Shown here: positions 4,489 through 63,606 of the stretch, piece by piece
Numbering within the stretch: the stretch's first letter is position 1
Layout: every line of letters begins with the position of its first letter
IMG/VR virus record: IMGVR_UViG_3300028859_000009
Span: 1 to 64,000 of that record
Strand: one strand, 5' to 3'
Length of the DNA: 64,000 bases
From: a virus
Position numbers and translations under genes: made by a program
Notes under the pieces: model-generated
The model's database searches: none
Told to the model about the DNA's origin: nothing
What the model saw: only the letters and a program-made list of their open reading frames with translations

Positions 4489-4815
4489 ATGAAGCATTTA
4501 AAATTATTTGAAAATAATACTGGAACAATAATTTATCTTTGTACTATATCAGATTGTGGTATAAATGATATGTATTCATTTGATGATAAATTAAGCAGAA
4601 ATAATTTTACTATAAATCATATTTGCAATGAATATAAAGACAATGATATAGATTATGAAATTGAAGATATTTTTGATATTGATACATTAATTGAGAATTT
4701 TAATGTATGTGATTTAGATAAAAAAATTTATTTAGATACTGCTAAGGTTTTAAATGATGTAAAATTAGATCCAGAAATACAAATAAAATATGATATTAAA
4801 AAATTTAATTTATAA
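4489..4815 (+). CDS. Small protein with candidate capsid-targeting leader
   Basis: 108 aa, starting 1 nt after the endonuclease stop. The N-terminus MKHLKLFENN fits the leader seen across this genome (M-K-x-h-x-x-F-E). The rest is acidic and Asn-rich (YKDNDIDYEIEDIFDIDTLIENF) with no recognised domain. It is followed by the first tRNA-Gly-like repeat. It may be an internal virion protein, by leader only. Confidence 0.55.
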   Translation: MKHLKLFENNTGTIIYLCTISDCGINDMYSFDDKLSRNNFTINHICNEYKDNDIDYEIEDIFDIDTLIENFNVCDLDKKIYLDTAKVLNDVKLDPEIQIKYDIKKFNL

Positions 4816-4836
4816 ACTTTTTAATATTTAATTACT

Positions 4837-4924
4837 ATATTATTAAAATGCAGTGGTAGCATATGTTAATGCGTTTAGCTTCCAGTTAAAGGATTCTGTT
4901 CAAATCAGACCACTTGCTCAAATT
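4837..4924 (+). repeat. 88-bp direct repeat, copy 1 (contains tRNA-Gly-like sequence)
   Basis: Identical to 6750-6837 over 88 bp, starting ATATTATTAAAATG and ending GCTCAAATT. Identity stops sharply on both sides. The two copies enclose the two metallopeptidase genes. Confidence 0.95.
4850..4918 (+). tRNA. tRNA-Gly(TCC)-like, copy 1
   Basis: It folds as a cloverleaf. Acceptor GCAGTGG pairs with CCAC-T-TGC with one bulged T; D stem GCAT/ATGC; anticodon stem TTTAG/TTAAA with loop CTTCCAG giving anticodon TCC; T loop TTCAAAT in a four-pair stem. The bulge and short T stem make it degenerate, so it may be a poor or dead tRNA. Confidence 0.6.
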
Positions 4925-4930
4925 TATATT

Positions 4931-5905
4931 ATGGATTATTTAAACAATTACAACACATATTTATTAGAAAGAAAATCGATATCTGATTCTTGTGAAATTT
5001 TACAGGAGACTATATCAAAAGATTTGCATAATATATTAATTAATTTTAATAATATTAATTTAAGTAATGAGTTTACTTATGAATTATCTGAAAATGACTT
5101 AAAATTAGATAATATTAAAGTAATATTTAATTTATATAAATATAAAGAAAATGTTTGCAACTCTGTTGCTAGATTTAATAACTCTAAAATGAGTAATGAT
5201 ATTTTATCTAATATTGAAATAGTTTTAGATATTTATATTTCTGATAAAGATGAGATATATTTTAATGATTATATAGATTCTGTCATTTTACATGAATGTT
5301 TACACATTTTTCAATATTACAATATTTCTAAAAATAATAAATTTAGGTCATCTTCTTGGTCTATCGGAGTTATTTTGAGTCAATTTAGAAACAATTTTAA
5401 ATCAGATTATATTAATAATATAATTGAATTATTATATAAAACTTTAAGTCATGAAATCGATGCTCAAATACATCAATATTATTATTTTAGTAAGATTGGT
5501 AAAAAATACAATAAAATATTTGATAATATTAAAGATATTGAAAAATTTAATATAAAAAAGCTTAGTAATATAGAAGAAATTGAATTAAATTTATTAAAAG
5601 ATAAAATATATCAGAGTATTTATTATTATTCAAAAAATAAGAAATATATTAAGAAATTAAATAAATCTATATGGAAAGAAACTAATAATGATAAATTTTT
5701 AATTGATCTTAAAGAATTATTTGATATTAGGTTAAAATATATAAAAAGTAAAATATCAAGTGTTGATAATAGGATTAATGAGGGTAATTTAGAGTTCTCA
5801 TCGATACCATCTGCAATATTTCATAAAGATTTTAATAGAATGTATTTATATGATCCTATATTTTTTAAAAATTTATTAAATGAAAATTTTAATATACCAA
5901 TATGA
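4931..5905 (+). CDS. HExxH zinc metallopeptidase-like protein, divergent paralogue
   Basis: 324 aa from ATG 4931. An earlier in-frame start at 4853 lies inside the tRNA-like repeat and is rejected. The zinc motif is HECLH (H121, E122, H125) after a hydrophobic strand. A likely third ligand is E175 in LSHEIDAQIHQ, about 50 residues on, as in the other four paralogues (LDNELNAR). The leader MDYLNNYNTYLLERKS is a weak match to the capsid-type leader. The C-terminal 130 residues are longer than in the paralogues. It overlaps the next paralogue by 4 nt (ATGA), so they form one transcription unit inside the direct repeats. The substrate is unknown. Confidence 0.7.
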   Translation: MDYLNNYNTYLLERKSISDSCEILQETISKDLHNILINFNNINLSNEFTYELSENDLKLDNIKVIFNLYKYKENVCNSVARFNNSKMSNDILSNIEIVLDIYISDKDEIYFNDYIDSVILHECLHIFQYYNISKNNKFRSSSWSIGVILSQFRNNFKSDYINNIIELLYKTLSHEIDAQIHQYYYFSKIGKKYNKIFDNIKDIEKFNIKKLSNIEEIELNLLKDKIYQSIYYYSKNKKYIKKLNKSIWKETNNDKFLIDLKELFDIRLKYIKSKISSVDNRINEGNLEFSSIPSAIFHKDFNRMYLYDPIFFKNLLNENFNIPI

Positions 5906-6759
5906 AAAAGTATTTAAATTTTATCAATGAAGGTAATGGTATTTCTAACATTATTAAAACATATTCTGATATTATTTATACTAATTTTTTAGACTATGAA
6001 GATAAGATTATTTTTTTAGATTTAAAAGATATTTTATTTCCTTTATATAATATTAAATTGACTATTAATTTTGAAAAAAGATTAGATTGTTATGCTAAAT
6101 TTGATCCTATAAATTATACTTTTTCAAATAATATATTAAAAAATATAAATTTATACTTTTTTGTTCCTATTGGAACTGATGATTACATCATAAAAAGTAA
6201 AATATCTCATGAATTGACTCATGTTTTAGAATTTTATAATTTGGTTAAGAATCAAAGAGATTTACCTACTCATGTTAATTTACAAAAAATTATAACAAAT
6301 TTTAACAAAATCGAGACACCTTTAAATGATTTTACATATTTTATTTATTTATCTTTGGATAATGAATTAAACGCTAGAGTTTCAGAAGCGTATCATTTTT
6401 TAATGAAATTTAATAGCATAGATAAAAATATTTTATTAGAAAAAATTAAAGAATGTGAATCATGGAAAAAATATGAAGAATTGGATAGTTTTAATGCTGA
6501 AAAATTTTATAATTATATGTTAGAAAAAATATCAGAGCCAGCGTTAATAGTTTTAATTAATCATTTAAATGAACAAATTATTAAAAATAATTACAATTTA
6601 GATTTTATAGATTCAAATTTACCATTAATAGATTATTTTAAAAAATGGGAAAATATATTTAAAAATAAATGTATTAAAAATAAAAAAAAGTTATTATCTA
6701 TAATTAATGAAGTTATTAAGGATCAAGGAAATATGAATGAAAAATATAGATATTATTAA
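5902..6759 (+). CDS. HExxH zinc metallopeptidase-like protein with capsid-type leader
   Basis: 285 aa. The leader MKKYLNFINEGNGIS contains INE|G, a good T4-prohead-protease-type site ([LI]xE|G). The zinc motif is HELTH (H103, E104, H107) followed by a helix, with a probable third ligand E155 in LDNELNARV. The order leader, beta-rich 90 residues, HExxH, LxNELxAR, helical tail is shared with the genes at 35079, 37740 and 50867. The gene stop (6757-6759) lies inside the second 88-bp repeat, so the repeat supplied its 3' end. No signal peptide is present, so action is in the cytoplasm or virion. Confidence 0.75.
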   Translation: MKKYLNFINEGNGISNIIKTYSDIIYTNFLDYEDKIIFLDLKDILFPLYNIKLTINFEKRLDCYAKFDPINYTFSNNILKNINLYFFVPIGTDDYIIKSKISHELTHVLEFYNLVKNQRDLPTHVNLQKIITNFNKIETPLNDFTYFIYLSLDNELNARVSEAYHFLMKFNSIDKNILLEKIKECESWKKYEELDSFNAEKFYNYMLEKISEPALIVLINHLNEQIIKNNYNLDFIDSNLPLIDYFKKWENIFKNKCIKNKKKLLSIINEVIKDQGNMNEKYRYY

Positions 6760-6837
6760 AATGCAGTGGTAGCATATGTTAATGCGTTTAGCTTCCAGTT
6801 AAAGGATTCTGTTCAAATCAGACCACTTGCTCAAATT
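6750..6837 (+). repeat. 88-bp direct repeat, copy 2
   Basis: Exact copy of 4837-4924. Its first 10 bp encode the end of the metallopeptidase gene, and it runs into a terminator at 6837. Confidence 0.95.
6763..6831 (+). tRNA. tRNA-Gly(TCC)-like, copy 2
   Basis: The same sequence and fold as 4850-4918, with the same bulged acceptor stem. The perfect identity of two degenerate copies points to recent duplication or active homogenisation. Confidence 0.6.
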
Positions 6838-6866
6838 AAAAAGTCTCTTTATGGGACTTTTTTTAT
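6837..6866 (+). terminator. Rho-independent terminator
   Basis: Stem AAAAGTC/GACTTTT with loop TCTTTATGG and a T run. It ends the metallopeptidase/tRNA-like unit. Confidence 0.85.
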
Positions 6867-16318: not shown

Positions 16319-17044
16319 ATGAAAAATAAACATTTAAAATCATTTGAAGGATTTACAAATGATGAACATTTTTATGGTGATGATTATACATCAACATTCA
16401 CGAAATACAGTGACGGCAGAAAACAGAAAAAAGATTTAGAAAAAAATATTCATAGTTATTATTATGAGTGTAGAACATATCTTATGAATAAAGAAACAAA
16501 TAATGTTATAAGTCTTATTGATGCGCATCCTGAAATAATAAATGTTGAATTGGCTGGTGATAATATACTTAATTTATCAAGTTCATATCAGAATTATGAT
16601 GTATGTAAGTATTTAATTGATAAAGGAGCTGATATTAATTTAAAAGGACATGCAAATTTTAGCCCACTATCTAGTATTGTGTATGAGAAACGTTTAAATG
16701 AAGAAGGATTTAAGGTATTTGAACTATTATTAGAACAGCCTAATATTGATATTAATTCTATAAGTAGAGATGGATCTACTCCATTAATACTAGCAGTCGA
16801 AAATTTAAAAAGAAAAGATCATATACTTTCTGGTGAAAATCATAATGTTGATATGAGATTGAAAATTATTGATGAACTTTTACAGAAAGGTGCAAATTTA
16901 TATGCTAAAGACTATAATTTTAAACCAGAACCTAATGATGATGGACTTAATGTATTTGATATTGTAAATAAAAATGATTATTTTTATTCTAATAAATATA
17001 ATAAACAAATATTATCTATATTAAATAAATATAAAAAAAATTAA
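16319..17044 (+). CDS. Ankyrin-repeat protein with capsid-type leader
   Basis: 241 aa. The leader MKNKHLKSFEGFTNDE is followed by a charged linker. Ankyrin repeats from about 60 are recognisable by YDVCKYLIDKGADINLKGHANFSPL, VFELLLEQPNIDINSISRDGSTPLILAV and IIDELLQKGANLYAKD. Ankyrin repeats bind proteins and are rare in phages. With the leader, a head-packed effector that binds a host protein is possible but not shown. A second ankyrin protein of the same plan is at 36743. Confidence 0.8.
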   Translation: MKNKHLKSFEGFTNDEHFYGDDYTSTFTKYSDGRKQKKDLEKNIHSYYYECRTYLMNKETNNVISLIDAHPEIINVELAGDNILNLSSSYQNYDVCKYLIDKGADINLKGHANFSPLSSIVYEKRLNEEGFKVFELLLEQPNIDINSISRDGSTPLILAVENLKRKDHILSGENHNVDMRLKIIDELLQKGANLYAKDYNFKPEPNDDGLNVFDIVNKNDYFYSNKYNKQILSILNKYKKN

Positions 17045-18032: not shown

Positions 18033-18218
18033 ATGAAATATATTAGATTTTTTGAAAATATAAATACTAAATTTAAAATTGGTGATTATGTTATAATTGA
18101 CATCAAAGATAGACAAAATAAATATGAATCTATTGTTGATTTTTTAGATAATAATGTAGGTATCATTGCTGACTTTGAATATGATAAAGGTATTCAAAAT
18201 CTTCATATAAATGAATGA
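18033..18218 (+). pseudogene. 5' fragment of leader gene split by TnpB element
   Basis: The frame gives MKYIRFFENINTKFKIGDYV then VGIIADFEYDKGIQNLHINE and a stop. The leader is MKYIRFFEN; FKIGDYVIIDI is the small SH3-like start seen in other proteins here. A continuation (YYDVKYDNVPNNLIMFTRYM) is found at 19688 on the other side of the TnpB gene in an open frame, so the gene was probably interrupted. Confidence 0.65.
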
Positions 18219-20696: not shown

Positions 20697-20963
20697 ATGA
20701 ATAAAATTAAAAATTTCAAACAATATAATGAAAGTTTATCATTAAATGAAAAATTATCAGATTTACAAATAGAATATAGAGAATATTTTAAATTCATACT
20801 TGATTGTTATGATGTTAAATCTCCTGCTAAATTATCAGATGAAAAGAAAAGTGAATTTTTTGATAATGTAAACAAATATTGGACAAAAGGAAAAGGTGCA
20901 ACTAAAGATTTAGAAAAAATTAAAATTGATATTTGCGGTGAAGAAAAAACAAATAAAAAATAA
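20697..20963 (+). CDS. Conserved virion-type protein with leader
   Basis: 88 aa. The leader MNKIKNFKQYNESLSLNE has two possible cleavage sites (YNE|S, LNE|K). The body has SPAKLSDEKKSEFFDNVNKYW, a motif I recognise from small proteins of many T4-like phages, often predicted virion components. Late-type promoter upstream. Confidence 0.7.
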   Translation: MNKIKNFKQYNESLSLNEKLSDLQIEYREYFKFILDCYDVKSPAKLSDEKKSEFFDNVNKYWTKGKGATKDLEKIKIDICGEEKTNKK

Positions 20964-20994: not shown

Positions 20995-21330
20995 ATGAAT
21001 CACTTAAAGATTTTTGATATGTTCGTTAATGAAAACAACGAAAATAATGATGATGATTATGCTGGATATTCAGAAAACGGAATAACACAAGATAAAAATG
21101 CTGAAACTGAATTAGTTAATTATCTTAATATACAATCTAAACTATTAGATGAAACTGCTAATAATTATTTTAAAAATGGAAAGAATGAACAAGGCATAAA
21201 AATGTTAAATGATTTGAGAACTGAAACAGATAATCATTTAACCCAAAACATGAAATCTGCTAAAAATTTTAATAGTATATATCACGACATTTTTTATAAA
21301 AAATATATAGAATACAAAACAATAAAATAA
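20995..21330 (+). CDS. Helical protein with capsid-type leader
   Basis: 111 aa. The leader MNHLKIFDMFVNENN (VNE|N) is followed by an acidic linker and a helical body (ELVNYLNIQSKLLDETANNYF). Unknown. A TATATA box lies at 20962. It is followed closely by the TKRT-motif gene. Confidence 0.65.
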   Translation: MNHLKIFDMFVNENNENNDDDYAGYSENGITQDKNAETELVNYLNIQSKLLDETANNYFKNGKNEQGIKMLNDLRTETDNHLTQNMKSAKNFNSIYHDIFYKKYIEYKTIK

Positions 21331-26402: not shown

Positions 26403-26659
26403 TTTCAAACTTAGATACCAAATCATATTTATTGTTATTAAGAGAACTGAAAAAATATTATGATGAACAAATACCAGACAGTGATTTTTATATACGTGAA
26501 ATAAGATATGATTGTAATAATGATAATTATGTTGTAACTATTCATTATAATCATATAGTGAATACAAATATGAGATTTAGATTATTATCTTTACCCGAAA
26601 ATCAATTAATTTTAATTTTAAGAAAAGTTAAACTAAATAAACTAAATGAAAGAAAATGA
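26387..26659 (+). CDS. Small protein with Lys/Leu tail, paralogue of previous gene
   Basis: 90 aa, ending ILILRKVKLNKLNERK. The next ATG lies within the codons of KLNERK (14-nt overlap). Confidence 0.7.
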   Translation: MPTNIVSNLDTKSYLLLLRELKKYYDEQIPDSDFYIREIRYDCNNDNYVVTIHYNHIVNTNMRFRLLSLPENQLILILRKVKLNKLNERK

Positions 26660-26918
26660 ATTGACAAATTATGATTTTAAAATTGGCCAAATTGTCACTT
26701 GTGTAAAAATTGATGATAATGATTATTGGGATCAACATTTAACAATAGGTAAAAAATATAAAATTGAATATATTGATTGGTATTTTCAAAATAAAATTGT
26801 AGTAAAAAGTGACACTAAAAAATTCAGCCAATTTGTACCAATAAGTTTTTTTACTGATATTAAATCAATCAGAAAATTAAAATTAAAAAAACTAAATAAA
26901 TATGTACAAAATAGGTGA
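26646..26918 (+). CDS. SH3-like small protein with Lys/Leu tail
   Basis: 90 aa: FKIGQIVTCVKIDDNDYW, LTIGKKYKIEYI, SFFTDIKSIRKLKLKKLNKYVQNR. The GxxVxC ... LTxGKxYxI barrel-like pattern is shared by about ten genes here. Confidence 0.7.
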   Translation: MKENELTNYDFKIGQIVTCVKIDDNDYWDQHLTIGKKYKIEYIDWYFQNKIVVKSDTKKFSQFVPISFFTDIKSIRKLKLKKLNKYVQNR

Positions 26919-27237
26919 TGTAGTTGTTTGTATAGATAATGAACCTAAACAAGATTATGTTTTTTATGATTTCGTATCATATATGTTAGAATTTCATAAA
27001 ATAAATCCATTAGAAATAAATAAAACTTACACAATTAAAAAAATTCTATCATATTGGGGAGATGATGGAAATTGTTATGAATCACTTGATGATACTAGTA
27101 GTCGATATGAAAGCACTTCATATATATTAGATGAAATTGAAAATAAATATGGATATTCAGTTTATGATATGACGAGATTTATAAGTGTAAAAGGATATAG
27201 AAAATTAAAATTAAATAAACTAAATGAAATTAGTTAA
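26902..27237 (+). CDS. SH3-like small protein with Lys/Leu tail
   Basis: 111 aa: YKIGDVVVCIDNEP, EINKTYTIKKI, then GYRKLKLNKLNEIS. A longer loop than its paralogues. Overlaps neighbours by 17 and 14 nt. Confidence 0.7.
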   Translation: MYKIGDVVVCIDNEPKQDYVFYDFVSYMLEFHKINPLEINKTYTIKKILSYWGDDGNCYESLDDTSSRYESTSYILDEIENKYGYSVYDMTRFISVKGYRKLKLNKLNEIS

Positions 27238-27478
27238 AAATAATAAATTTGAAATTGATGATTATGCTATTTGTATAAAAAATAGCAATCAATTAATAAC
27301 AGTAGATAAAGAATATAAAATATTATGGATATATAAAAATAGCGGATATTTAAATATAATATGCGATAATAATCTTATAATGCCGTTACCTGATTCATAT
27401 TTTATAAATAAAAAGAATTTAAAAGATTTAAGAAAATTTAAACTTGAAAAACTAAATAAATATGTTCAAAACAAATGA
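27224..27478 (+). CDS. SH3-like small protein with Lys/Leu tail
   Basis: 84 aa: FEIDDYAICIKNSNQLITVDKEYKIL then DLRKFKLEKLNKYVQNK. The tail is nearly the same as in the gene at 26646, including YVQNK. Confidence 0.7.
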   Translation: MKLVKNNKFEIDDYAICIKNSNQLITVDKEYKILWIYKNSGYLNIICDNNLIMPLPDSYFINKKNLKDLRKFKLEKLNKYVQNK

Positions 27479-27686
27479 TACCATTGTTTGTATAAAAACC
27501 TTTGAATATTCAAATATATTGACAATAAATAAAGAATATAAAATATCAGCAATGGGAATATTTAATACTGATAATATATGCGTAACATGCGATATAAATA
27601 TTAATTATTTTGTACCTAAATCCTGTTTTGCTAGTAAAAAAGAACTTAGAAAAATGAAAATAAATGAAATCAAAAAACAAATTTAA
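27462..27686 (+). CDS. SH3-like small protein with Lys-rich tail
   Basis: 74 aa: FKTNDTIVCIKTFEYSN, LTINKEYKI, FVPKSCFASKKELRKMKINEIKKQI. Very close to the next gene. Confidence 0.7.
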   Translation: MFKTNDTIVCIKTFEYSNILTINKEYKISAMGIFNTDNICVTCDININYFVPKSCFASKKELRKMKINEIKKQI

Positions 27687-27906
27687 AGTTGGTGAATTAG
27701 TTATTTGTATAAAAAATGATACTTTTACTGAACTATTATTGACAATAAATAACGAATATAAAGTACTTCAATTAAGTAATTGTAATTCAAGTAATATGTA
27801 TATGATATGTAATAATAATTATAATTTTTTTGTACCTGAATCTTATTTCATTAGTAAACAAAAACTTAGAAAAATGAAAATAAATGAAATCAAACAACAA
27901 ATTTAA
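27664..27906 (+). CDS. SH3-like small protein, recent tandem duplicate
   Basis: 80 aa: FKVGELVICIKNDT, LTINNEYKVL, FVPESYFISKQKLRKMKINEIKQQI. Its flanking neighbours share long stretches (FKVGEL.ICIKND), so the array grew by tandem duplication. Confidence 0.7.
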   Translation: MKSKNKFKVGELVICIKNDTFTELLLTINNEYKVLQLSNCNSSNMYMICNNNYNFFVPESYFISKQKLRKMKINEIKQQI

Positions 27907-28132
27907 AGTTGGAGAATTAGCTATTTGTATAAAAAATGATAATACAAATGATTTATTAATAACAGTAGGTAAAGAATATAGAATATTAAACATTTATGAA
28001 GATGAAAAAAATAGTTCTATATTAATAATGACTGATGTTAACGTTGATTGCTATATAATTATTAAAACATTTTTTATTAGTAAAAGAATTGAAAGAAAAA
28101 ATAAATTGAAAGAAATTAGTGAAACATTTTAA
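27884..28132 (+). CDS. SH3-like small protein, end of array
   Basis: 82 aa: FKVGELAICIKNDNTNDLLI, VGKEYRIL, ending RIERKNKLKEISETF, a more diverged tail. It starts inside the previous gene's tail (23-nt overlap). Confidence 0.7.
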   Translation: MKSNNKFKVGELAICIKNDNTNDLLITVGKEYRILNIYEDEKNSSILIMTDVNVDCYIIIKTFFISKRIERKNKLKEISETF

Positions 28133-29964: not shown

Positions 29965-30213
29965 ATGTTTAAAGAAGGAAATATAATAGTTTGTATTGAT
30001 GATAGTAATGATACTAAAACATTTGAACCATATAAGAATTTGAAAAAATATTCTACGTATAAAATAGAAAGTTATGGTCATTATTATATGCTTAATCAAT
30101 ATATAAAATTAATTAATATAGGAGGAAATTTCAGAGCAGACAGATTCATATCACTAAAAGAATATAGAAAATTAAAACTTGAAAAGTTGTGTTTAAATCA
30201 GGAGATAAAGTAG
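29965..30213 (+). CDS. SH3-like small protein with Lys/Leu tail
   Basis: 82 aa: FKEGNIIVCIDDSNDTKTF ... FISLKEYRKLKLEKLCLNQEIK. Same family as the 26646-28132 array. Overlaps the next gene by 25 nt. First gene of the dnaK unit. Confidence 0.7.
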   Translation: MFKEGNIIVCIDDSNDTKTFEPYKNLKKYSTYKIESYGHYYMLNQYIKLINIGGNFRADRFISLKEYRKLKLEKLCLNQEIK

Positions 30214-30536
30214 TAATTGTAGATTATAATATATTTTCATTTGATGATTATTTGAAACTTTTAAAAAATAATAAATTATTTGAAAAAGATAATATTAATA
30301 TTAAAAAATATGATATATTAACAGTCAGAAGAGTGTGGTATTCATCAGATAATGATTATTTTACAACAGATTATTATAAAACTTTTGGTAATTTAGATTA
30401 CATATATATAAATTTATCATTTGAAGAATTTGGTAATAGTTCATTTTCATTAGATGTTAAAAGATTCATATCACTAAAAGAATATAGAAAATTAAAATTA
30501 AAAAAAATTAATAATTCAAAAAAAAAATTAAAGTAA
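30189..30536 (+). CDS. SH3-like small protein with Lys/Leu tail
   Basis: 115 aa: FKSGDKVVIVDYNIFSFDDY, then RFISLKEYRKLKLKKINNSKKK. It shares FISLKEYRKLKL with the previous gene exactly. dnaK starts 3 nt later. Confidence 0.7.
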   Translation: MFKSGDKVVIVDYNIFSFDDYLKLLKNNKLFEKDNINIKKYDILTVRRVWYSSDNDYFTTDYYKTFGNLDYIYINLSFEEFGNSSFSLDVKRFISLKEYRKLKLKKINNSKKKLK

Positions 30537-37739: not shown

Positions 37740-38672
37740 ATGAAAATATTAAATAAAAATTTATGGAATAAATACATAAAAACATATGAATCATTCAATA
37801 AAGAAATTCCAGATGAATTAAAAAAGTTATTTAATGAAATAAGGCAAATTATAGGCAATCAAACGAAATCATTTAAAAAAAATATAGATTTAAATTCATT
37901 AGAATTTTGTAATTTGATCATAGAATTAGATGTTAAATTTAACAAATTGAATTCTGAAATAAGATATGAGGATAAAGATATTATTTACTATTCAAATGTA
38001 AATATAAATGATTTAGTAACAGGAAAAGATAGAACAATAATACCAATTATAATTGATGATATAAATTTAAATGTAGATAAATTATGTTCAGTTATAAGTC
38101 ATGAAATAAGACATATCTATGATGTTTACACTATAAATGAAGAAAGTGATATGAAATCATTCACAAATTCTTTATTTTATACTGAGTTACTTAAAAATGA
38201 AAGCAATAAATATTTTATAGATTTTTTACAATTAATTTATTTATCATTAGAACACGAATTAATAGCTAGAAATACTATGATATGGGAGATGTTTATAAAT
38301 TGTAAGTGTTCTAAAGAAGAATTATATAGGTTATATCATGATTCTTACATGTATAAATCTTTTAATATTTTAAAATCATTTGATTATAATAAATTAATTA
38401 ATGAGCAAGATATTATAGATAAAGTAAATATTTTTATAAATTATTTTGGTGGTAATTTATGTGCAGATAAAAATGATATATTTATATTTTTTGAAAATTG
38501 GAAAAAATATTTTATTACTAAATCTGATGAATATATAATAGAAGGATATAAAGTTTTGGATGATATTTTATCTATAAATGAATTTAAAAATAACAAATCA
38601 GATACAATTAATATAAAAGATTTACTTCTTTATATTCATAAAAAATTCATTTTTAAACAAAAATATGAATAA
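37740..38672 (+). CDS. HExxH zinc metallopeptidase-like protein, long leader
   Basis: 310 aa. The leader is longer than in the paralogues (MKILNKNLWNKYIKTYESFNKE). Zinc motif HEIRH (H121, E122, H125); probable third ligand in LEHELIARNTM. TTTTTATATATAAATAAAA upstream is a late-type variant. The most diverged member after 4931. Confidence 0.72.
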   Translation: MKILNKNLWNKYIKTYESFNKEIPDELKKLFNEIRQIIGNQTKSFKKNIDLNSLEFCNLIIELDVKFNKLNSEIRYEDKDIIYYSNVNINDLVTGKDRTIIPIIIDDINLNVDKLCSVISHEIRHIYDVYTINEESDMKSFTNSLFYTELLKNESNKYFIDFLQLIYLSLEHELIARNTMIWEMFINCKCSKEELYRLYHDSYMYKSFNILKSFDYNKLINEQDIIDKVNIFINYFGGNLCADKNDIFIFFENWKKYFITKSDEYIIEGYKVLDDILSINEFKNNKSDTINIKDLLLYIHKKFIFKQKYE

Positions 38673-38795: not shown

Positions 38796-38824
38796 TAAAA
38801 ATGACATCATCTGATGTCATTTTT
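38796..38824 (+). terminator. Bidirectional terminator
   Basis: Stem AAAAATGACATCA/TGATGTCATTTTT. It ends both convergent genes and overlaps the end of 38807-39466. Confidence 0.85.
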
Positions 38825-39466
38825 ATTATTTTGTCTTTGATTTCCTTTATATCCTTGGTTTGGTTTATCTTTGAACAATTCATCTAGTAAACTATTTCTA
38901 ACAGCATTAGAATATGCTTCTGAATCATTTTTTTGAAATTCTCTTCGTGTTTTATATTTATTTACTATATTTTGTAATTGTTTTTTCGTAAAAACTTTAT
39001 TAGGATTATGTTTTTCCGCATATCCTTGATTCTCATGATCGTTAAACAATTTATCTAATATGTCTTTATCACAAGCAATATTATATGCTGAAGCATTATT
39101 ATCTTTGAAATCATTTCGTAATTCATATTTATCAGCTTCTTTTTGAAGGTTTTCTTCTGTCCAATATCCTTTTGGCACTTGTTTAGATTGTTTATTGAAT
39201 AAGTAATCTAATAAATTACTTTTAAGAGCAATATCATAAGCTCTTGGATCATTTTTAATAAATTCTTCTTTTGTTTTATATTTATCTGCGGCAATTTGTA
39301 AAGTATCAATACTTAAACCACCCATTGTTGGGTCATCAAATACAGAGTCATCATAATCAGGGTCATAGAATTCAGGGTCATCAAATTCTGAATCATAAAA
39401 TTCTGAATCATCAAATTTATAATTATACTCATTTACAAACTCATCAAATTTATTAATTCTACTCAT
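38807..39466 (-). CDS. Endonuclease-type repeat protein without nuclease, with capsid-type leader
   Basis: 219 aa. The leader MSRINKFDEFVNEYN (VNE|Y) is followed by an acidic Asp/Tyr/Phe/Glu repeat (FDDSEFYDSEFDDPEFYDP) at 17-48. Three repeats follow of the same kind as in the GIY-YIG endonuclease at 32448 (YWTEENLQKEADKYELRNDF, DKLFNDHENQGY). No GIY-YIG or other catalytic motif is present. Probably a DNA-binding module recruited as an internal head protein. An AT-rich late-type box lies just upstream on its strand. Confidence 0.75.
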   Translation of the reverse strand: MSRINKFDEFVNEYNYKFDDSEFYDSEFDDPEFYDPDYDDSVFDDPTMGGLSIDTLQIAADKYKTKEEFIKNDPRAYDIALKSNLLDYLFNKQSKQVPKGYWTEENLQKEADKYELRNDFKDNNASAYNIACDKDILDKLFNDHENQGYAEKHNPNKVFTKKQLQNIVNKYKTRREFQKNDSEAYSNAVRNSLLDELFKDKPNQGYKGNQRQNNKNDIR

Positions 39467-45328: not shown

Positions 45329-45526
45329 ATGAAATTTAAAGAATTGGACGAAATTTTACAATTAAGATTAAAAAAATCTTGTAGATTAAATGAATCTTTA
45401 AATGGTTGGCTGCCTTCAAGTGAAGATTATGTTTATATGAAAGATGATGAGGTTGTAGAAATATTCTCAAATAATTTAGAAATAGAATTTAAAGATAATA
45501 ATATCACATCTGTGAATAAGTATTAA
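45329..45526 (+). CDS. 65-aa small protein
   Basis: MKFKELDEILQLRLKKSCRL ... LNGWLPSSEDYVYMKDDEVV. A strong host-type promoter suggests an early product. Its end overlaps the convergent gene by 23 nt. Unknown. Confidence 0.6.
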   Translation: MKFKELDEILQLRLKKSCRLNESLNGWLPSSEDYVYMKDDEVVEIFSNNLEIEFKDNNITSVNKY

Positions 45527-46127
45527 TCTTATTTTTTCTATATTTAACGTTAGATAAATATTTATCATCTTTTGATATTATTTCGTAAGGAATATTATTC
45601 AATTTTAGCAATTCAATTTTTTTTGTTATATCTCTATTACTATAAATAATATATACTTTTTTTATATATTTTATTGAAACTTCATTTGATACTATTATCT
45701 CTTCTGCAATACCAAAATCGAATGCATCTTTATTTGTTTTGATGTTCCAATATTCTTTACCAAATTCTTTTAATCTAAGTTGTTTTGATATTGATAATTT
45801 TTTAGTTTTTTCTTTTGGTAAATTCAAATAATAGTCTAAATTTTCTATTATTGGAATAATTTTATATTTATCACTCAATTTTTGAGTATCAAATTCTATT
45901 ACAGCATCACCATAACCAACAGCAGTTGAAAAATTTCTAGTTACTGATATGCCAACTTCATCTTTTATTCCTAAATTTCTTCTCATATCTGAACTCCATT
46001 GATAACCCCATTCACCTTTTAGTAATTTTATTTTACCATCAAGTAAAATTTGTTTTAAATTACCTACTCCTTTATAAAGGTTATAATTTTTTGATTCTAA
46101 TATAAATTCTTCAAATTTTATTTTCAT
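45504..46127 (-). CDS. ADP-ribosyltransferase-like protein with capsid-type leader
   Basis: 207 aa. The leader MKIKFEEFILES gives ILE|S and closely resembles the T4 internal-protein leader (MKTYQEFI.E). The body has the mono-ADP-ribosyltransferase order: LYKGVGNLKQIL (K19 where Arg is usual), ISVTRNFSTAVGYG (the S-T-S-type strand, 60-73), VIEFDTQKL, and AEEIIVSN with E142/E143 at the expected E-x-E place, then YIKKVYI. T4 Alt is a head-packed ADP-ribosyltransferase that acts on host RNA polymerase, so a parallel role is attractive. The Lys for Arg change is a caution. Confidence 0.55.
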   Translation of the reverse strand: MKIKFEEFILESKNYNLYKGVGNLKQILLDGKIKLLKGEWGYQWSSDMRRNLGIKDEVGISVTRNFSTAVGYGDAVIEFDTQKLSDKYKIIPIIENLDYYLNLPKEKTKKLSISKQLRLKEFGKEYWNIKTNKDAFDFGIAEEIIVSNEVSIKYIKKVYIIYSNRDITKKIELLKLNNIPYEIISKDDKYLSNVKYRKNKINTYSQM

Positions 46128-50866: not shown

Positions 50867-51706
50867 TTGACATATTATGATTATTTAAATGAAGGTAAGG
50901 GTATATCTAACTTTATAAAAAAATTATCTACCATAATAGTTGGTAATATTTTCAAAGACATTAAAGTTTTTGATATAGAAATAGATATATCAGAATTAAA
51001 ATTAATTAATAAAATTTCAATAGAAGTTAATAATATAACTAGAGATTATAATTCAGCATTTTTTGTTAAAAAAAATACTGATGATGATATTTTGAATAAT
51101 TTATCAATAAAATTTGATTTACCATTTATAGAAGATGTTGATCATTATTATTTAATTGAAATTGTTACACATGAGCTAACACATTTGTATGAGTTTTATA
51201 ATATTGTTAAAAATAATAAAAAATTACCACTTTATAATAATATTAAAAAATCTTTAATACAAACGATTAAGCAAGACAATTTTGATATATTCTCATATTT
51301 TAGAAATATAGTTTATTTAACATTAGATAATGAATTAAATGCTAGAGTTTCTCAAACATATCAATTATTAAAATTTAAAAATATCAAAGATAAAATACAA
51401 TTATTTAATATATTAAAAACTACTCATATTTGGAAAAAATATAAAGAGATTGATAATTTTAATCCAAAATCATACACAAGTGATTTAATAGAAATACTTG
51501 GTGTTAATTTGACTTGCATATTAATTAATGATTTTAATAATGAATTAAAAAATAATTTTATAAATTTTTCATTTATAACTAATGTTAGCAATGAAAATGA
51601 AATAATTGAATATTTTAATAATTGGAATAAGAGATTCAAATATAAATTAAAAAAACATATTTTAAAATTGAATAAAGTTATTGATGAAGTTATTACTGAT
51701 TTATAA
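50867..51706 (+). CDS. HExxH zinc metallopeptidase-like protein with leader
   Basis: 279 aa from a TTG start. The leader LTYYDYLNEGKGIS gives LNE|G, identical to 35079 from LNEGKGIS. Zinc motif HELTH (H102, E103, H106); third ligand in LDNELNARVSQ. Very like 5902 (same HELTH, FYNIVKN, LDNELNARVS). Late-type promoter. Confidence 0.75.
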   Translation: MTYYDYLNEGKGISNFIKKLSTIIVGNIFKDIKVFDIEIDISELKLINKISIEVNNITRDYNSAFFVKKNTDDDILNNLSIKFDLPFIEDVDHYYLIEIVTHELTHLYEFYNIVKNNKKLPLYNNIKKSLIQTIKQDNFDIFSYFRNIVYLTLDNELNARVSQTYQLLKFKNIKDKIQLFNILKTTHIWKKYKEIDNFNPKSYTSDLIEILGVNLTCILINDFNNELKNNFINFSFITNVSNENEIIEYFNNWNKRFKYKLKKHILKLNKVIDEVITDL

Positions 51707-54967: not shown

Positions 54968-55321
54968 ATGAAAATAAGAAGTGGATTTGTGAGCAACTCA
55001 AGTAGTTCGTCTTTTGTAATTCTGTTACCTGAGAATTTTCTTGATGTTATTGATTATGATAAGATTACTAATAAATATGAAGATTTTCCATTAGATGGAT
55101 TTAAAGACTTATTAAAAATGCTCATCGACAATGAAGAATTATGGTATGATTCCATATATGAGTATTGTAATACAGATGAATTTGAAGATTTCGATTTTCC
55201 TGATCATTTAGATAAATTAGTTAAGCCATATGTAATTGCAGAAGTTGAAGGTGGACCAGATGAAGGCAAAATTATTATTGCAAATAAAAATAAAATTAAT
55301 GAAATTTTAAATAATAAATAA
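54968..55321 (+). CDS. SNSSSSSF-family protein 1
   Basis: 117 aa starting MKIRSGFVSNSSSSSFVILL. After the fixed N-terminus the body is acidic (NLDVIDYDKITNKYEDFPLDG in type) and differs from the other family members. First of six. Confidence 0.75.
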   Translation: MKIRSGFVSNSSSSSFVILLPENFLDVIDYDKITNKYEDFPLDGFKDLLKMLIDNEELWYDSIYEYCNTDEFEDFDFPDHLDKLVKPYVIAEVEGGPDEGKIIIANKNKINEILNNK

Positions 55322-55322
55322 T

Positions 55323-55766
55323 ATGAAAATACGAAATGGATTTGTAAGCAACAGTAGTAGTAGTTCTTTTATAGTTCTTATTAAAAATGATCAAAAAATA
55401 TCAAATAATATGCTTATGAAATTATTTGATTTAAAAGAAAACTCTATTCTATGTGGATTTGCTTCTGAATTATCTAATTGGATGTTAGAAAATCTAAAAG
55501 AAATGACTATTAAAGATATATTTAATAATTATTGTTATTCAGAAGATAAAAATTTATCAGAAGAAGATATGATAAATATAATTATAAATGATAGTTGTCC
55601 TGATATTTCAAGAGAAGAGTTAGAAAAAATAAAGAATAAAGAATATCGTTATTATGAATGTTCAGCATCTGATGATTCTGGTGATGGACTAGAATCTTAT
55701 CTATGTGATAAAGGAATAAATGTTGATAATGATAACATTCGTATTCAAAGTGGAGGAAGTTATTAA
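55323..55766 (+). CDS. SNSSSSSF-family protein 2
   Basis: 147 aa starting MKIRNGFVSNSSSSSFIVLI; 1 nt after the previous stop. Body helical/acidic (LSEEDMINIIINDSCPDISR), ending in a Gly-rich piece. Unknown. Confidence 0.75.
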   Translation: MKIRNGFVSNSSSSSFIVLIKNDQKISNNMLMKLFDLKENSILCGFASELSNWMLENLKEMTIKDIFNNYCYSEDKNLSEEDMINIIINDSCPDISREELEKIKNKEYRYYECSASDDSGDGLESYLCDKGINVDNDNIRIQSGGSY

Positions 55767-55785
55767 AATTAAAAAAAAAAATTAA

Positions 55786-56178
55786 ATGAAAATAAGAAAT
55801 GGTTTTGTAAGTAATTCAAGTAGTTCATCTTTTGTGATAAGAGGAATTAAAATTACAGTAGAAGAATTAGTTAAAGTATTAAATATTCCTATTGAAGAAT
55901 TTGATAATATTGAAGATGAATATGATAAATATGAATTTATATCAAATAAAATTGATGATGATTTCAGAATTGAAGTAAATGGTAATTATTTTGGAGAAAA
56001 AGATTATAATACTCTTATTGTAGGTGATTCACTCGGTGGATTAGAAGATGGTGAAGTAACAGAATTTAAAGATCGTACACCAGAAGAAGATGATGCATTA
56101 CGTCAAAAATTTGAAAAATATGGAATTTCAGGAGTAATTTGCACGTATATTCAAATGGTAAGTAATGACAATTATTAA
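55786..56178 (+). CDS. SNSSSSSF-family protein 3
   Basis: 130 aa starting MKIRNGFVSNSSSSSFVIRG. It then has ITVEELVKVLNIPIEEFDNI, FIVEVNGNYFGEKDYNTLIV-like strands and FKDRTPEEDDALRQKFEKYG. Unknown. Confidence 0.75.
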   Translation: MKIRNGFVSNSSSSSFVIRGIKITVEELVKVLNIPIEEFDNIEDEYDKYEFISNKIDDDFRIEVNGNYFGEKDYNTLIVGDSLGGLEDGEVTEFKDRTPEEDDALRQKFEKYGISGVICTYIQMVSNDNY

Positions 56179-56203
56179 ATAATTATTTATAATTAAAAAA
56201 ATT

Positions 56204-56647
56204 ATGACAAAAAATCAAATTCATAATATATTTTATTACCTTGGTATTATGTTAAATGATAATAAAATCATATATACATCACCTGATTATTTAATAGAAA
56301 AATCAATGACTTTTTTTAATAAATTAGGTAAAAATATTTTTATATGTGATATTGAAAATAATTATAAGAAACAAGAGATAGATTATGATATGAATTTTTG
56401 GTCTAAATATTGTGAAATATGGAAAATTAATAAGCAAGATTTTGAATTATTAAATATTATTAATTTTATATTAAATTCTAATATTAATAATACTAAAAAT
56501 GTAATTAAAAATTTCGAAAAATATATTGGAAATATTGATATAATATCTGATTCAGATTTAAGTTTTAAATTGCATCCAATATTACGATCTCATATAAATA
56601 ATAGTATTAATTTTGATAGTAGATATTTAAAATTAATATCATTTTAA
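56204..56647 (+). CDS. Unknown protein, MTKNQI start
   Basis: 147 aa, helical, Asn/Ile-rich, with MTKNQIHNIFYYLGIMLNDN; no SNSSSSSF start although it sits among those genes. Unknown. Confidence 0.65.
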   Translation: MTKNQIHNIFYYLGIMLNDNKIIYTSPDYLIEKSMTFFNKLGKNIFICDIENNYKKQEIDYDMNFWSKYCEIWKINKQDFELLNIINFILNSNINNTKNVIKNFEKYIGNIDIISDSDLSFKLHPILRSHINNSINFDSRYLKLISF

Positions 56648-56650
56648 TAA

Positions 56651-56687
56651 AATTAAATAAAAAATTAAATAAAAAATTAAATAAAAA
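56651..56687 (+). repeat. Tandem 12-bp A-rich repeat before IMPDH/GMPR gene
   Basis: Three copies of AAATTAAATAAA-type words (56650-56687) directly before ATG 56688. Probably an A-rich translation-enhancing leader made by slippage. Confidence 0.7.
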
Positions 56688-57722
56688 ATGATAAATAATA
56701 TAGCATTAACATATGATGATATTCAATTATCTCCAGAATATTCTGAAGTAGAACATAGAAGTGAAATTAGTTTAATAACAAAGTTATCAAAAAATTATGA
56801 ATTAATTATACCATTAGTTGCATCACCAATGGATACAGTTTGTGAATATGAAATGGCATGTAAAATGTTTCAATTAGGAGGCATTGGATGTATTCATAGA
56901 TTTATGACTATAGAAGATCAAATTGTTGAAATTAAAAAATTAACTAATTATATTAATAATAGTTCTCATAATCCTTTTATTGGACGTAAAATTCCAATAA
57001 TGGCTGCAGTAGGATCAACTGGAGATTTTTTAGAAAGAGCAAAAGAATTAATTAAATCTGGAGTAAATGTCATTCTTATTGATGTTGCTCATGGACATCA
57101 TATAAATGTCAAAAAAGCAATTGAAGCAATTAAAGGCTTAAATTTAAATATTGATGTAATTGCAGGTAACATTGCAACAGCAGAAGCAGCAATTGATTTA
57201 CAGAATTGGGGTGCTGATGGATTAAGATGCGGAATTGGAAATGGGGCGTTATGTACAACAAGGTTAAAAACAGGATTTGGAATACCAAGTGTAACAAGTT
57301 TAATTGATATTATATCTGTTGCTAAAGTTCCTGTTATGGCAGATGGAGGAATTAGAAATAGCGGTGATATTTCTAAGGCTCTTGCATTAGGATCATCTAG
57401 TGTTATGTTAGGTTCTCTATTAGCTGGAACAGAAGAGTCACCAGGAAAGATTATAGAGAGTTCTAATGGCTTATATAAACGTTATAGAGGCTCTGCTTCA
57501 TTAGAAACAAAAACTGTTCACAATCAAGCAGAAAGAAACGTGGAAGGTGAGTCAACAACAATACCATTTAAAGGTGGTGTCAAATTTGTAATAGAAGGAT
57601 TAATAGATGGAGTTCGTTCAGCATTATCTTATGGTGGAGCTAACAATCTATCTGAATATAATCCAAAATGGGTTCAAGTAACAAATGCTGGAATTGCTGA
57701 AGCAAAACCACATTTATTATAA
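56688..57722 (+). CDS. IMP dehydrogenase / GMP reductase family enzyme
   Basis: 344 aa, no CBS domains, the length of GMP reductase. TALTYDD-like start, MDTVCEYEMA, then IDVAHGHHINVKKAI and VIAGNIATAEAA. The catalytic loop is GIGNGALCTTR with C189 (usual GxGSxCTTR). PVMADGGIRNSGDISKALAL, then YRGSASLET and NVEGESTTIPFKGGV. Active-site residues are all there; the loop Pro-Gly-Ser is replaced by Asn-Gly-Ala. It could make IMP from GMP or XMP from IMP; length favours GMP reductase, the flap (EGESTTIPFKG) leaves it open. A purine-pool enzyme in the middle of the SNSSSSSF cluster. Confidence 0.9.
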   Translation: MINNIALTYDDIQLSPEYSEVEHRSEISLITKLSKNYELIIPLVASPMDTVCEYEMACKMFQLGGIGCIHRFMTIEDQIVEIKKLTNYINNSSHNPFIGRKIPIMAAVGSTGDFLERAKELIKSGVNVILIDVAHGHHINVKKAIEAIKGLNLNIDVIAGNIATAEAAIDLQNWGADGLRCGIGNGALCTTRLKTGFGIPSVTSLIDIISVAKVPVMADGGIRNSGDISKALALGSSSVMLGSLLAGTEESPGKIIESSNGLYKRYRGSASLETKTVHNQAERNVEGESTTIPFKGGVKFVIEGLIDGVRSALSYGGANNLSEYNPKWVQVTNAGIAEAKPHLL

Positions 57723-57742
57723 AAATAAAAGATAAATAAAAA

Positions 57743-58045
57743 ATGAAAATAAGAACAGGATTTGTAAGTAATTCAAGTTCAAGTAGTTTTGTAATAATTG
57801 GAGTCAAAAGATTAGATTGTACAGAAGAAGAAATTGAACAAGGGTTTGATAATGGAATAGAAACACTTTATGTGGATATGACTAACTATAATTATATTAT
57901 TGGTTATATAATTTCAAATGGAGAAGAATTATATAGTAGTATAACATCAATAGATGATATAATAGAAAAATCTAAATTGGTATCTGAAACATTAAATGTT
58001 GATATCAGTGAAGTTGAATTAATAACTGGAACTAGATATTGTTAA
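57743..58045 (+). CDS. SNSSSSSF-family protein 4
   Basis: 100 aa starting MKIRTGFVSNSSSSSFVIIG. Body acidic alpha/beta (EEEIEQGFDNGIETLYVDMT), differing from the others. Unknown. Confidence 0.75.
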   Translation: MKIRTGFVSNSSSSSFVIIGVKRLDCTEEEIEQGFDNGIETLYVDMTNYNYIIGYIISNGEELYSSITSIDDIIEKSKLVSETLNVDISEVELITGTRYC

Positions 58046-58059
58046 TATAAATAATAAAA

Positions 58060-58698
58060 ATGAAAATAAGAAGTGGATTTGTAAGTAATTCGTCATCTAG
58101 TAGTTTTATAATTTCTGATAAAAGTTTTAAGAGTGTACGTGATCTTGCTACATATATGATTAATGTAAAATATGAACAATATATTGATAATGATATGAAA
58201 AATAAAGAATATGATGCATATAGTATAACTGAATATAATTCATATATTAATATATTAAAAAATATAGATGAAAATCAAGCTATAACCTTTCAAAGTTGTA
58301 ACTATGATACATATATAAAAAAAGTAGCTGATCGCTATTTAGTTTCTACATGCAATAACGAAGATTGGGAGTTGTATGAATATAATACAAAATTATCAGA
58401 TGATGCGATATCAGAATTAAGAATAATACAACAAAATTATAAAGTTAATAGTGATGACTGGAATACTATAGAATATTTAACTAAATATGAAAATGATTTT
58501 GATGCTTTTGATAATGATTATTATTCTTTAGATTTTAAAATAGTTGGTAAAGAAAGTTCAACATATTGTCCAAAATGTAAGAAAAATGGCGATTATTATG
58601 ATATGTGGAACACAAAAAAACATGGACTTATATGTTTAGTGTGTAATCCAATATATAAAAGAAAAGATAAATTAGACGAAATAAATAAAAATATATGA
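58060..58698 (+). CDS. SNSSSSSF-family protein 5 with zinc ribbon and Lys tail
   Basis: 212 aa starting MKIRSGFVSNSSSSSFIISD. A C-terminal zinc ribbon is CPKCKKNGDYYDMW ... LICLVCNP, followed by YKRKDKLDEINKNI, a Lys/Leu-type tail. It joins the two main signal families of this genome in one protein. Confidence 0.78.
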   Translation: MKIRSGFVSNSSSSSFIISDKSFKSVRDLATYMINVKYEQYIDNDMKNKEYDAYSITEYNSYINILKNIDENQAITFQSCNYDTYIKKVADRYLVSTCNNEDWELYEYNTKLSDDAISELRIIQQNYKVNSDDWNTIEYLTKYENDFDAFDNDYYSLDFKIVGKESSTYCPKCKKNGDYYDMWNTKKHGLICLVCNPIYKRKDKLDEINKNI

Positions 58699-58865
58699 TA
58701 GAAATTTTAAAATATGTAACTTCAGATTTTTGGACATTTATTGGATGTTTTTTAATAATTTCTATTATAGGAAGTTTTATTGTAGGAATTTTTGAAGCAA
58801 TTTTCAAAAAACCAGACATCAAAATAGATTTAACTAATAAAAAAGATAAAAATAAAATAATATGA
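58695..58865 (+). CDS. 56-aa single-pass membrane protein
   Basis: MIEILKYVTSDFWTFIGCFL ... IISIIGSFIVGIFEAIF, then a Lys-rich end. ATGA overlaps at both ends place it firmly between the two SNSSSSSF genes. Confidence 0.65.
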   Translation: MIEILKYVTSDFWTFIGCFLIISIIGSFIVGIFEAIFKKPDIKIDLTNKKDKNKII

Positions 58866-59383
58866 AAATAAGAAATGGTTTTGTTAGTAACTCATCATCA
58901 AGTAGTTTTATCGTTATTTTTCCAATGGAACCTAAATGTGTAAATGATGTAAAAAATATGTTATTCACTAAAAATCAATCATATTATGATTTTGATAATA
59001 CTTATTCAGTTGAACAAGTTGCAATGACTGTATGGTCTGACATATGTGATCAAACTAAAAATAATACTGAAAAAGCTATTGAAATTTTAAGTAGCGGATA
59101 TTATGGAGATGGAGCGCCTGAATATGATGATTTTAAATATATAGAGGATTCATCTGATAGATGGACAGCATATAACAATGCTACAAATAAATATTCAGCA
59201 AAAATACTTAAAGATTTCTTTAATATAAGAAAGTTAAAACTTCAAATAATTGATGGAAAAGAAGTAACTGGATCAGTAATGTATTGCTTCAGCTATTCAG
59301 ATAATGACGGAAACTATTATAGCGCACTTGAACACGATGGATTATTTAATAATTTAAAGAATATAACAGTTAGTCAACACTAA
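58862..59383 (+). CDS. SNSSSSSF-family protein 6
   Basis: 173 aa starting MKIRNGFVSNSSSSSFIVIF. Body PMEPKCVNDVKNMLFTKNQS ... GDGAPEYDDFKYIEDSSDRW, ending SYSDNDGNYYSALEHDGLFN. Closest in size to member 2. Unknown. Confidence 0.75.
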   Translation: MKIRNGFVSNSSSSSFIVIFPMEPKCVNDVKNMLFTKNQSYYDFDNTYSVEQVAMTVWSDICDQTKNNTEKAIEILSSGYYGDGAPEYDDFKYIEDSSDRWTAYNNATNKYSAKILKDFFNIRKLKLQIIDGKEVTGSVMYCFSYSDNDGNYYSALEHDGLFNNLKNITVSQH

Positions 59384-59384
59384 T

Positions 59385-59416
59385 AAAAAAAAGCTTCTTT
59401 TTAGAAGCTTTTTTTA
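59385..59416 (+). terminator. Bidirectional terminator
   Basis: Stem AAAAAGCTTCT/AGAAGCTTTTT between convergent genes. Confidence 0.9.
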
Positions 59417-59656
59417 TTTCCAATTTCGTTTTGCTCTAATTGCAAAATTTATTTCTTGCTCTTGATCAATAATACTCTTAGGCACATCTTTACCTTCATC
59501 TTGATATTTCTTACTTCTTTTTTTAAGTGATGATAATTCATTATTTAATTCTTCAATAGTTTTACCTGCATGTTCACCAGTATGCTTAACTTTAACATCT
59601 TCTTCCCATTTTTCATTCATAGAATTATAATCTAAAAAATTCTTTATTTTTTTCAT
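59414..59656 (-). CDS. Small charged protein with capsid-type leader
   Basis: 80 aa. The leader MKKIKNFLDYNSMNEKW (MNE|K) is followed by VKVKHTGEHAGKTIEELNNELSS and a coiled-coil. Its promoter (ATAATATATA, minus strand 59676-59685) is late-type. Unknown. Confidence 0.65.
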   Translation of the reverse strand: MKKIKNFLDYNSMNEKWEEDVKVKHTGEHAGKTIEELNNELSSLKKRSKKYQDEGKDVPKSIIDQEQEINFAIRAKRNWK

Positions 59657-62285: not shown

Positions 62286-62293
62286 CTTATTAT

Positions 62294-62368: not shown

Positions 62369-62379
62369 CAAAAATATAT

Positions 62380-62451: not shown

Positions 62452-62459
62452 CAAAAAAT

Positions 62460-62533: not shown

Positions 62534-62545
62534 CAATAAACATAA

Positions 62546-62617: not shown

Positions 62618-62683
62618 ATAGTTTATAATTGTGACTATTATCATACTAATAGTATGTTATGATTAATAAAAATAAACTTATAT

Positions 62684-62757
62684 AGTCTTGTAGTTCAGTT
62701 GGTTAGAGCAATTGCCTGATAAGCAATAAATCGTGAGTTCAAGTCTCACCGAGACTA
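62684..62757 (+). tRNA. tRNA-Ile(GAT)
   Basis: Acceptor AGTCTTG/CGAGACT, anticodon stem ATTGC/GCAAT, loop CTGATAA, T loop TTCAAGT. Confidence 0.9.
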
Positions 62758-62766
62758 CTAAATAAT

Positions 62767-62839
62767 GCTCCTATCATATAATTGGTAAGTATGCGCGCCT
62801 TATAAGCACGTCATGTAGGTTCAATGCCTACTGGGAGTA
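62767..62839 (+). tRNA. tRNA-Ile(TAT)
   Basis: Acceptor GCTCCTA/TGGGAGT, anticodon stem CGCGC/GCACG with one mismatch, loop CTTATAA giving TAT, which reads ATA, a codon used heavily here. Confidence 0.78.
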
Positions 62840-62844
62840 CAAAT

Positions 62845-62927
62845 GGATTGATTGAGCAGTTGGTTGGCTCGCCGCACTGTAAATGCGTTCTCTTCGGAGC
62901 TTGTGGGTTCGAATCCCTCTCAGTCCA
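62845..62927 (+). tRNA. tRNA-Tyr(GTA)
   Basis: Class II tRNA with a long variable arm. Acceptor GGATTGA/TCAGTCC, anticodon stem CGCA/TGCG, loop CTGTAAA, T loop TTCGAAT. Confidence 0.88.
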
Positions 62928-62982
62928 CTAATTTTACAAATAATTTATTATACATTTTTTATATATAAAGATAAAAAGTAGT

Positions 62983-63606
62983 ATGAAGAAATTGTTACAA
63001 AAATTTGAATCATTACAAGAAGGTTTAGCAGTTATATTATCAAATTCATTATCTAGTATGGCTATGTTTTGGATAATAACATTATTAGTTATAATACCAT
63101 TATTTTTCAGTCAGCCTTCAGGACCAGTTGCATGGATGCAATATATAGTTTCCGTATTTTTTCAAGGTGTAGCGTTACCAGTTTTGGGTTATATTGCTAA
63201 AATAAGTGGAGAAAGGACTGATAGTATAATTAAAAAAATTGAAGAATTATCTGAAAAAATAGAAGGAATGACAGAAAATATTAAAACTGAAGTTGATGAT
63301 ATTGAAAAAGATGTTGACTATATCGAAAAAGATGTTGATGATATAAAAATTGATGTTGAAAAAACAGATAATAAAATAAAAAAGAATGTTGATGATATTC
63401 AGGAAAATGTTGATGATATTCAGGAAAATGTTGACAAAAATGATAAAAATATTCAAACTGATATTGATAATATACAAAAAAATGTTAATAACATAACAGA
63501 GAATGTAAAAGAGAATGATAATTTCGTAAAAACTCGCACTGATGATATACAAGAAAATGTTGATAAAATTCAAGAAAATGTTGATAATATATCAGGAAAA
63601 AGTTAA
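62983..63606 (+). CDS. Membrane protein with long coiled-coil tail and leader
   Basis: 207 aa. The leader MKKLLQKFESLQEGLA gives LQE|G. Two hydrophobic segments follow, about 26-45 (MAMFWIITLLVIIPLFF) and 54-72 (QYIVSVFFQGVALPVLGYI). From about 75 to the end is an unbroken coiled coil with seven-residue repeats of the IQENVDD type. The upstream box TTTTTATATATAAAG is late-type. Possibly a membrane-anchored virion or delivery factor. Confidence 0.7.
   Translation: MKKLLQKFESLQEGLAVILSNSLSSMAMFWIITLLVIIPLFFSQPSGPVAWMQYIVSVFFQGVALPVLGYIAKISGERTDSIIKKIEELSEKIEGMTENIKTEVDDIEKDVDYIEKDVDDIKIDVEKTDNKIKKNVDDIQENVDDIQENVDKNDKNIQTDIDNIQKNVNNITENVKENDNFVKTRTDDIQENVDKIQENVDNISGKS

Follow-up and report, generated by a model that had tools for sequence, protein, structure and literature searches.

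The internal proteins IPI, IPII and IPIII of bacteriophage T4 and its protein Alt share an N-terminal leader of 10–16 residues (for example MKTYQEFIAE) that carries two aromatic residues three positions apart, ends in [IL]xE and is cut by gp21. In the IPIII leader, mutagenesis showed residues 4 and 7 to be needed for targeting and residues 8 and 10 for cutting, and gp21 cuts after L/I-x-E (PMC9026906). Here, we describe a set of proteins with leaders of this form in the first 64 kb (the window) of the 140,730-base virus record IMGVR_UViG_3300028859_000009, and in relatives of this record. We consider it likely that these leaders are T4-type capsid-targeting propeptides, greatly expanded in number, on cargo packed in the head.

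Further features shared with the T4 internal proteins are unrelated bodies, a gp21-type protease (in relatives of the record) and ADP-ribosyltransferase-like cargo. The present clade differs in its tens of carriers, perhaps about 100, compared to a handful in T4, in a second leader class outside the L/I-x-E rule, and in a protease fused to a scaffold of leader-like repeats, whereas T4 has two separate genes. T4-like cyanophages such as P-SSM2 (MKSFKQFLEE, MKSFSQFLTE) also have T4-form leaders and a gp21-type protease, but the leaders stand on few proteins (just five matches to the class-A pattern defined below, 0.6 expected). Sphingomonas phage PAU, a smaller, cultured T4-type phage with a related protease and adaptor, has a leader set resembling our class B (eight carriers, at 9332, 100631, 101031, 106521, 107429, 107809, 113313, and 159561), but on only about 9 of 253 genes and with its own consensus, MKT[LI][ST]KL[YF]E. 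In phiKZ and SPN3US, many packed proteins likewise have cut propeptides, and SPN3US contains about 50 head proteins (PMC7411985); these propeptides are, however, long (PMC5694885), the motif is S/A-x-E, the protease belongs to S80, and phiKZ lacks a shared short class-A leader (0 matches). The T4 authors proposed earlier that T4-like phages can pack a variety of proteins by means of leaders. The principle is therefore known, and the novelty lies in the number of carriers, in the second class and in the scaffold of repeats; literature searches yielded no paper describing such a leader set in huge phages.

The record and its relatives

The window has a GC content of 22.6%, and Shine-Dalgarno sites are nearly absent from the record. 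Its gene content appears T4-type (PhoH, DHFR, a gp46-like protein and a split DNA polymerase, judged by sequence). The head-tail adaptor shares 56% identity with its LR756501 counterpart and 37–39% with the adaptors of 634–642 kb phages. LR756501, at 735 kb, was described by Al-Shayeb et al., who place their largest genomes in the Mahaphage clade and predict Bacteroidetes as hosts (PMC7162821). The window belongs to a 140-kb fragment from a T4-type phage that has the Mahaphage LR756501 as a relative. For comparison, LR756501, LR756502 (540 kb read) and the IMG/VR relatives G001 (330 kb, adaptor at 92%), G003 (345 kb) and G005 (155 kb) were used. The DNA polymerase gene of the record (98192–102147, locus L002) lies in pieces with an intein-like sequence, amid several homing-endonuclease-like genes, as judged by sequence.

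Leaders are enriched in genomes of the clade

The leaders fall into two classes: class A, [FY]xx[FY][ILV]xE, and class B, MKxLKxFE or MITNFKxFE, which in the window takes the form ..KxFE without [LIV]xE. Genes were matched against a strict pattern for each class, and expected numbers were taken from three null models, namely within-sequence shuffling, column shuffling and windows at internal methionines. Strict class A or B leaders were found in 11 of the 104 window genes, compared to 1.4, 1.9 and 1.9 expected under the respective nulls, and none of the window shuffles gave more than seven matches. In LR756501, 97 of 958 genes carry a leader (12–19 expected), in G001 83 of 529 (8–16 expected) and in G003 45 of 458 (8–10 expected). 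Two more clade genomes have leaders on 22 of 204 and 23 of 212 genes, with 3–19 expected across all five clade genomes. For LR756502, 25 class A and 54 class B leaders were counted (2.8 and 6.9 expected). The original prediction of about 18 leader proteins in the window therefore held as to the presence and enrichment of the set, but several of its members were weak or wrong (see below) and its size is far larger in relatives.

The strict class-A expression also picks T4 IPII and IPIII, but gave zero matches in RaK2 and phiKZ; leader enrichment was not seen in RaK2. These results bear on the idea that AT-rich genes simply begin with MKK..F..E by chance, through composition or start-codon context. 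A GC content of 22.6% does favor K, N, I, F, Y, and E, but all three nulls give several-fold fewer leaders, and for most residues the leaders use synonymous codons about as often as the genome does on average. As the motif is also defined beyond the usual MKK start, we read it as a protein-level signal with selection acting on the peptide. Chance is thereby refuted for the leader set and has a negligible probability as a general explanation, although single members may still be chance matches.

In sequence logos, information falls to background past the leader glutamate, with a preference for A, S, N, or E at P1'. Together with an alignment of 106 carriers and clusters of their bodies, the logos show a leader that is short, lies at the very start of the protein and ends abruptly, followed by differing bodies. 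The only segments shared in this alignment are the leader and, in some proteins, a DxYGxxxW box. That all carriers descend from one duplicated gene family, its likeness surviving only at the N-terminus, is accordingly very improbable: some paralog families do occur (HELTH, SH3-like), but the bodies belong to unrelated folds, including PPK2, DeoC, methyltransferase, radical SAM, and ankyrin. Among orthologs, identity in carriers is 0.76 in the leader and 0.69 in the body, compared to 0.74 and 0.70 in non-carriers. By identity, ortholog leaders are thus not clearly more conserved than bodies, and the motif alone is kept. In LR756501, many small proteins among the class B and some of the class A carriers (e.g., 474651–476339) have a second box, DPYGEE[IN]W, after the leader.

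Two leader classes

P3 of class A is I, L, or V in 108 of 114 leaders, although the search pattern permitted six residues there, and P2 is mostly N or K. The cut form [LIV]xE, which had been predicted for the entire set, hence applies to class A and does not extend to class B, where P3 is mostly K or T and violates the T4 L/I-x-E rule. At the T4 targeting positions 4 and 7, class A has the aromatics [FY]xx[FY] and class B [LIF]xx[FY]. The conserved leader positions are the ones that direct targeting and cutting in T4, and class B retains the targeting half of the leader without following the T4 cut rule.

Class B might instead be a different signal, an N-terminal tag of small accessory proteins that directs them, for example, to a site in the infected cell, with class A alone bound for the head. 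Besides the K or T in place of I/L/V at P3, this would fit the fact that class B is found mostly on small proteins in tandem arrays (n = 76 in G001, in tandem clusters of small genes) and the lack of a conserved cut site downstream. On the other hand, the same bodies carry either leader depending on the genome: an isochorismatase-like body has an A leader in the present record and in LR756501 and a B leader in LR756502, and HAD-like and SH3-like families likewise switch between genomes (body names judged by sequence). Both classes, moreover, share MITNF..F / MIKKF..F starts with equal hydrophobic/aromatic spacing, and both are enriched for the late promoter in LR756501. We therefore regard a separate role of class B as possible but the less probable alternative.

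Head protease, scaffold and gp23

No match to gp21 or gp23 was found in the 140-kb record, and the link between leaders and protease therefore runs through the relatives. The profile PF03420 found no match in the record, where control profiles likewise matched nowhere. In IMGVR_UViG_3300030041_000009 (256 kb), the record nearest to the window, a search for a protease-scaffold fusion gave only a weak 30-residue match, and the fragments could not be joined.

A gp21-type protease fused to a scaffold is present in LR756501, LR756502, G003, and G005 and in 76 IMG/VR relatives with open reading frames (ORFs) of at least 400 residues; protease and leaders co-occur in one record in each of the four named genomes. 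The LR756501 fusion (L039, 13913–16336) has about 800 residues with 14-residue tandem repeats. The protease matches the PHROG family "head maturation protease" (phrog_207, E = 2e-28) and Pfam S80 (28.8 bits, above the cut-off of 23.4), while S77 remained just under its cut-off (24.4 bits, cut-off 27). Residues H77, S132/133, and D154 are invariant and align with H/S/D residues of T4 gp21, which we take to be its catalytic triad. A structural model of modest confidence (predicted local distance difference test, pLDDT, 58) had T4 gp21 (5JBL, E 6e-6) as its sole confident match in the PDB. The gp21-like protease that the original prediction placed elsewhere in the genome was thus located in relatives, outside this 140-kb record.

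In each of the 76 fusions with 400 or more residues, the scaffold part contains 10–16 copies of the class-A motif, arranged as 14-residue repeats such as YSEYIAENLDKSID. In LR756501, 14 copies compare to 0.18 expected by shuffling; in three proteomes, no other protein is as rich in the motif as the fusion. In addition, the N-terminal region of gp23 has a processing-type site, [LMI]NE/N (the slash marks the cut or the end of a leader), that is conserved in 49 sequences extracted from relatives. Scaffold and gp23 of the relatives hence carry the cut motif of the class A leaders.

Leaders that sort proteins to the virion or its assembly site could leave them on its surface, in its neck or tail, or in the cell; the location of some LR756501 carriers next to neck/adaptor genes speaks for this. 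As the motif is most recurrent in the prohead scaffold-protease, and the head core is where T4 leaders of the same form take their proteins (PMC9026906), such a destination seems unlikely, and the head remains the preferred one.

Promoters

The decamer TTAATATATA lies 15–35 bases upstream of many LR756501 genes, including those of the adaptor and the tail fibres, and was therefore interpreted as a late-type promoter. In this genome it precedes 19 of 80 class A, 11 of 38 class B and 64 of 688 other genes (p = 4e-4 and 8e-4). Over the whole 140-kb record, it was found before 5 of 35 carriers compared to 9 of the 151 remaining genes, which is not significant, and AATATATA before 12 of 35 and 14 of 151, respectively. 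As the trend is weak in the window's own record, the statement that most carriers sit behind TTAATATATA was too strong: the exact decamer precedes only five of the genes listed for the window (20697, 35079, 36743, 45504, and 50867).

Proposed function of the leaders

Late in infection, the two aromatics of the leader would dock the cargo onto the prohead core, the scaffold of which consists of repeats of the leader's own motif. The scaffold-fused gp21-type protease would then cut the core, gp23 and class-A leaders after [ILV]xE, and the freed cargo would be retained in the head during DNA packaging and enter the next host with the DNA. Class B (MKxLKxFE), which keeps the docking half, is probably packed too, and may be cut by another rule or stay uncut. 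Packaging, cutting and injection we infer from T4. Given the leader counts, phages of this clade probably deliver cargo proteins by the tens, and perhaps about 100 of them, into the host alongside their DNA, with roughly one gene in ten tagged.

Several points weigh against this explanation. Apart from the departure of class B from the T4 cut rule and the missing gp21 and gp23 matches in the record, the late-type promoter enrichment is not significant in the present record or in G003, and some pattern matches are, judged by sequence, false, for example UvsW and a clamp-like protein. UvsW (LR756501, 472420) and other matches to the loose expression were removed from the leader set. We found no virion proteome for any phage of this clade, and about 100 packed protein species would, to our knowledge, exceed the head load of any known T4-like phage. 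Head-packed cargo with T4-type leaders, as originally predicted, nevertheless is the best-supported reading. A more far-reaching version, to which we give even chances, is that megaphages of the Mahaphage type tag 10–16% of their genes, across the whole genome, with an address that brings roughly a hundred enzymes and effectors (ADP-ribosyltransferase-like and metallopeptidase-like proteins, polyphosphate kinase, ankyrin and LRR proteins) into the head, on a scaffold of tandem copies of the tag motif, with one class meaning "pack and cut" and the other "pack, and either cut in another way or leave the tag on".

If true, the injected cargo of the largest known phages, the genes of which are almost all unannotated, could be read by a rule based on sequence, and lists of hypothetical proteins would become candidate host-takeover and anti-defence effectors. 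The repeat scaffold hints at the way in which cargo docks onto the core, a question still open for T4. As the leaders are short and portable, they are testable in laboratory T4.

Carriers in the window

Clear class A leaders are found on six window genes. The gene at 4931–5905 (+), formerly listed as weak, encodes MDYLNNYNTYLLE/RK (YNTYLLE) before a metallopeptidase-like body with HECLH, and HELTH metallopeptidase-like bodies follow MKKYLNFINE/G at 5902–6759 (+) and MTYYDYLNE/G at 50867–51706 (+, TTG start). The remaining three are MNHLKIFDMFVNE/N at 20995–21330 (+), assigned by leader pattern, MSRINKFDEFVNE/Y at 38807–39466 (−), with tandem KYKTRxEFxKNDxxAY repeats and a match to phrog_20046 (unknown function), and MKIKFEEFILE/S at 45504–46127 (−). 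The latter has an ADP-ribosyltransferase-like body, a low-confidence model of which gave Tpt1 and DarT as top folds. Looser class A leaders are MNKIKNFKQYNE/S at 20697–20963 (+), retained in G001 and G003, LRILNFKLFNE/A at 34237–34698 (+, TTG start) and MKKIKNFLDYNSMNE/K at 59414–59656 (−), retained in G001.

Class B is represented by MKHLKLFE/NN at 4489–4815 (+, 108 residues, by leader pattern), MKNKHLKSFE/G with an ankyrin-repeat body at 16319–17044 (+, Pfam Ank 2e-10) and MKYVKTFE/L with a body judged ankyrin-like by sequence at 36743–37657 (−). A class-B-like variant, MKYIRFFE/N, precedes a small body (KIGDYVIID) judged SH3-like by eye at 18033–18218 (+). In a HELTH paralog of 5902, at 35079–35921 (+), the leader is reduced to MLNE/GKGIS.

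Of the other listed genes, 17054, an 8-codon ORF ending in a stop (MKIEKINE), and 16220, an ORF of only 27 residues, were rejected as carriers; 15908 and 37740 do not fit the leader patterns. The gene at 37740–38672 (+) encodes a HEIRH metallopeptidase-like paralog, the first 18 residues of which contain no clear leader. The start MKKLLQKFESLQE at 62983–63606 (+) is probably no member either, as the leader is absent from the near ortholog (MNKLVEKLKSSQEK).

The bodies are unrelated or only distantly related and include a family of HExxH metallopeptidase-like paralogs. Pfam and PHROG searches of the window cargo mostly returned no matches. In LR756501, carrier bodies include polyphosphate kinase 2 (PPK2), DeoC aldolase, radical SAM and methyltransferase; most carriers have no known family.

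A leaderless array of small KxGDxVxCI (SH3-like) proteins occupies 26646–28132 and 29965–30536 (+) of the window; relatives of this kind carry class-B leaders elsewhere. Six window proteins (54968, 55323, 55786, 57743, 58060, and 58862; 54968–59383, +) share another N-terminus, MKIR[SNT]GFVSNSSSSSF[VI], without a glutamate cut motif. Five proteins in G001, and none in the other genomes checked, begin in the same way.

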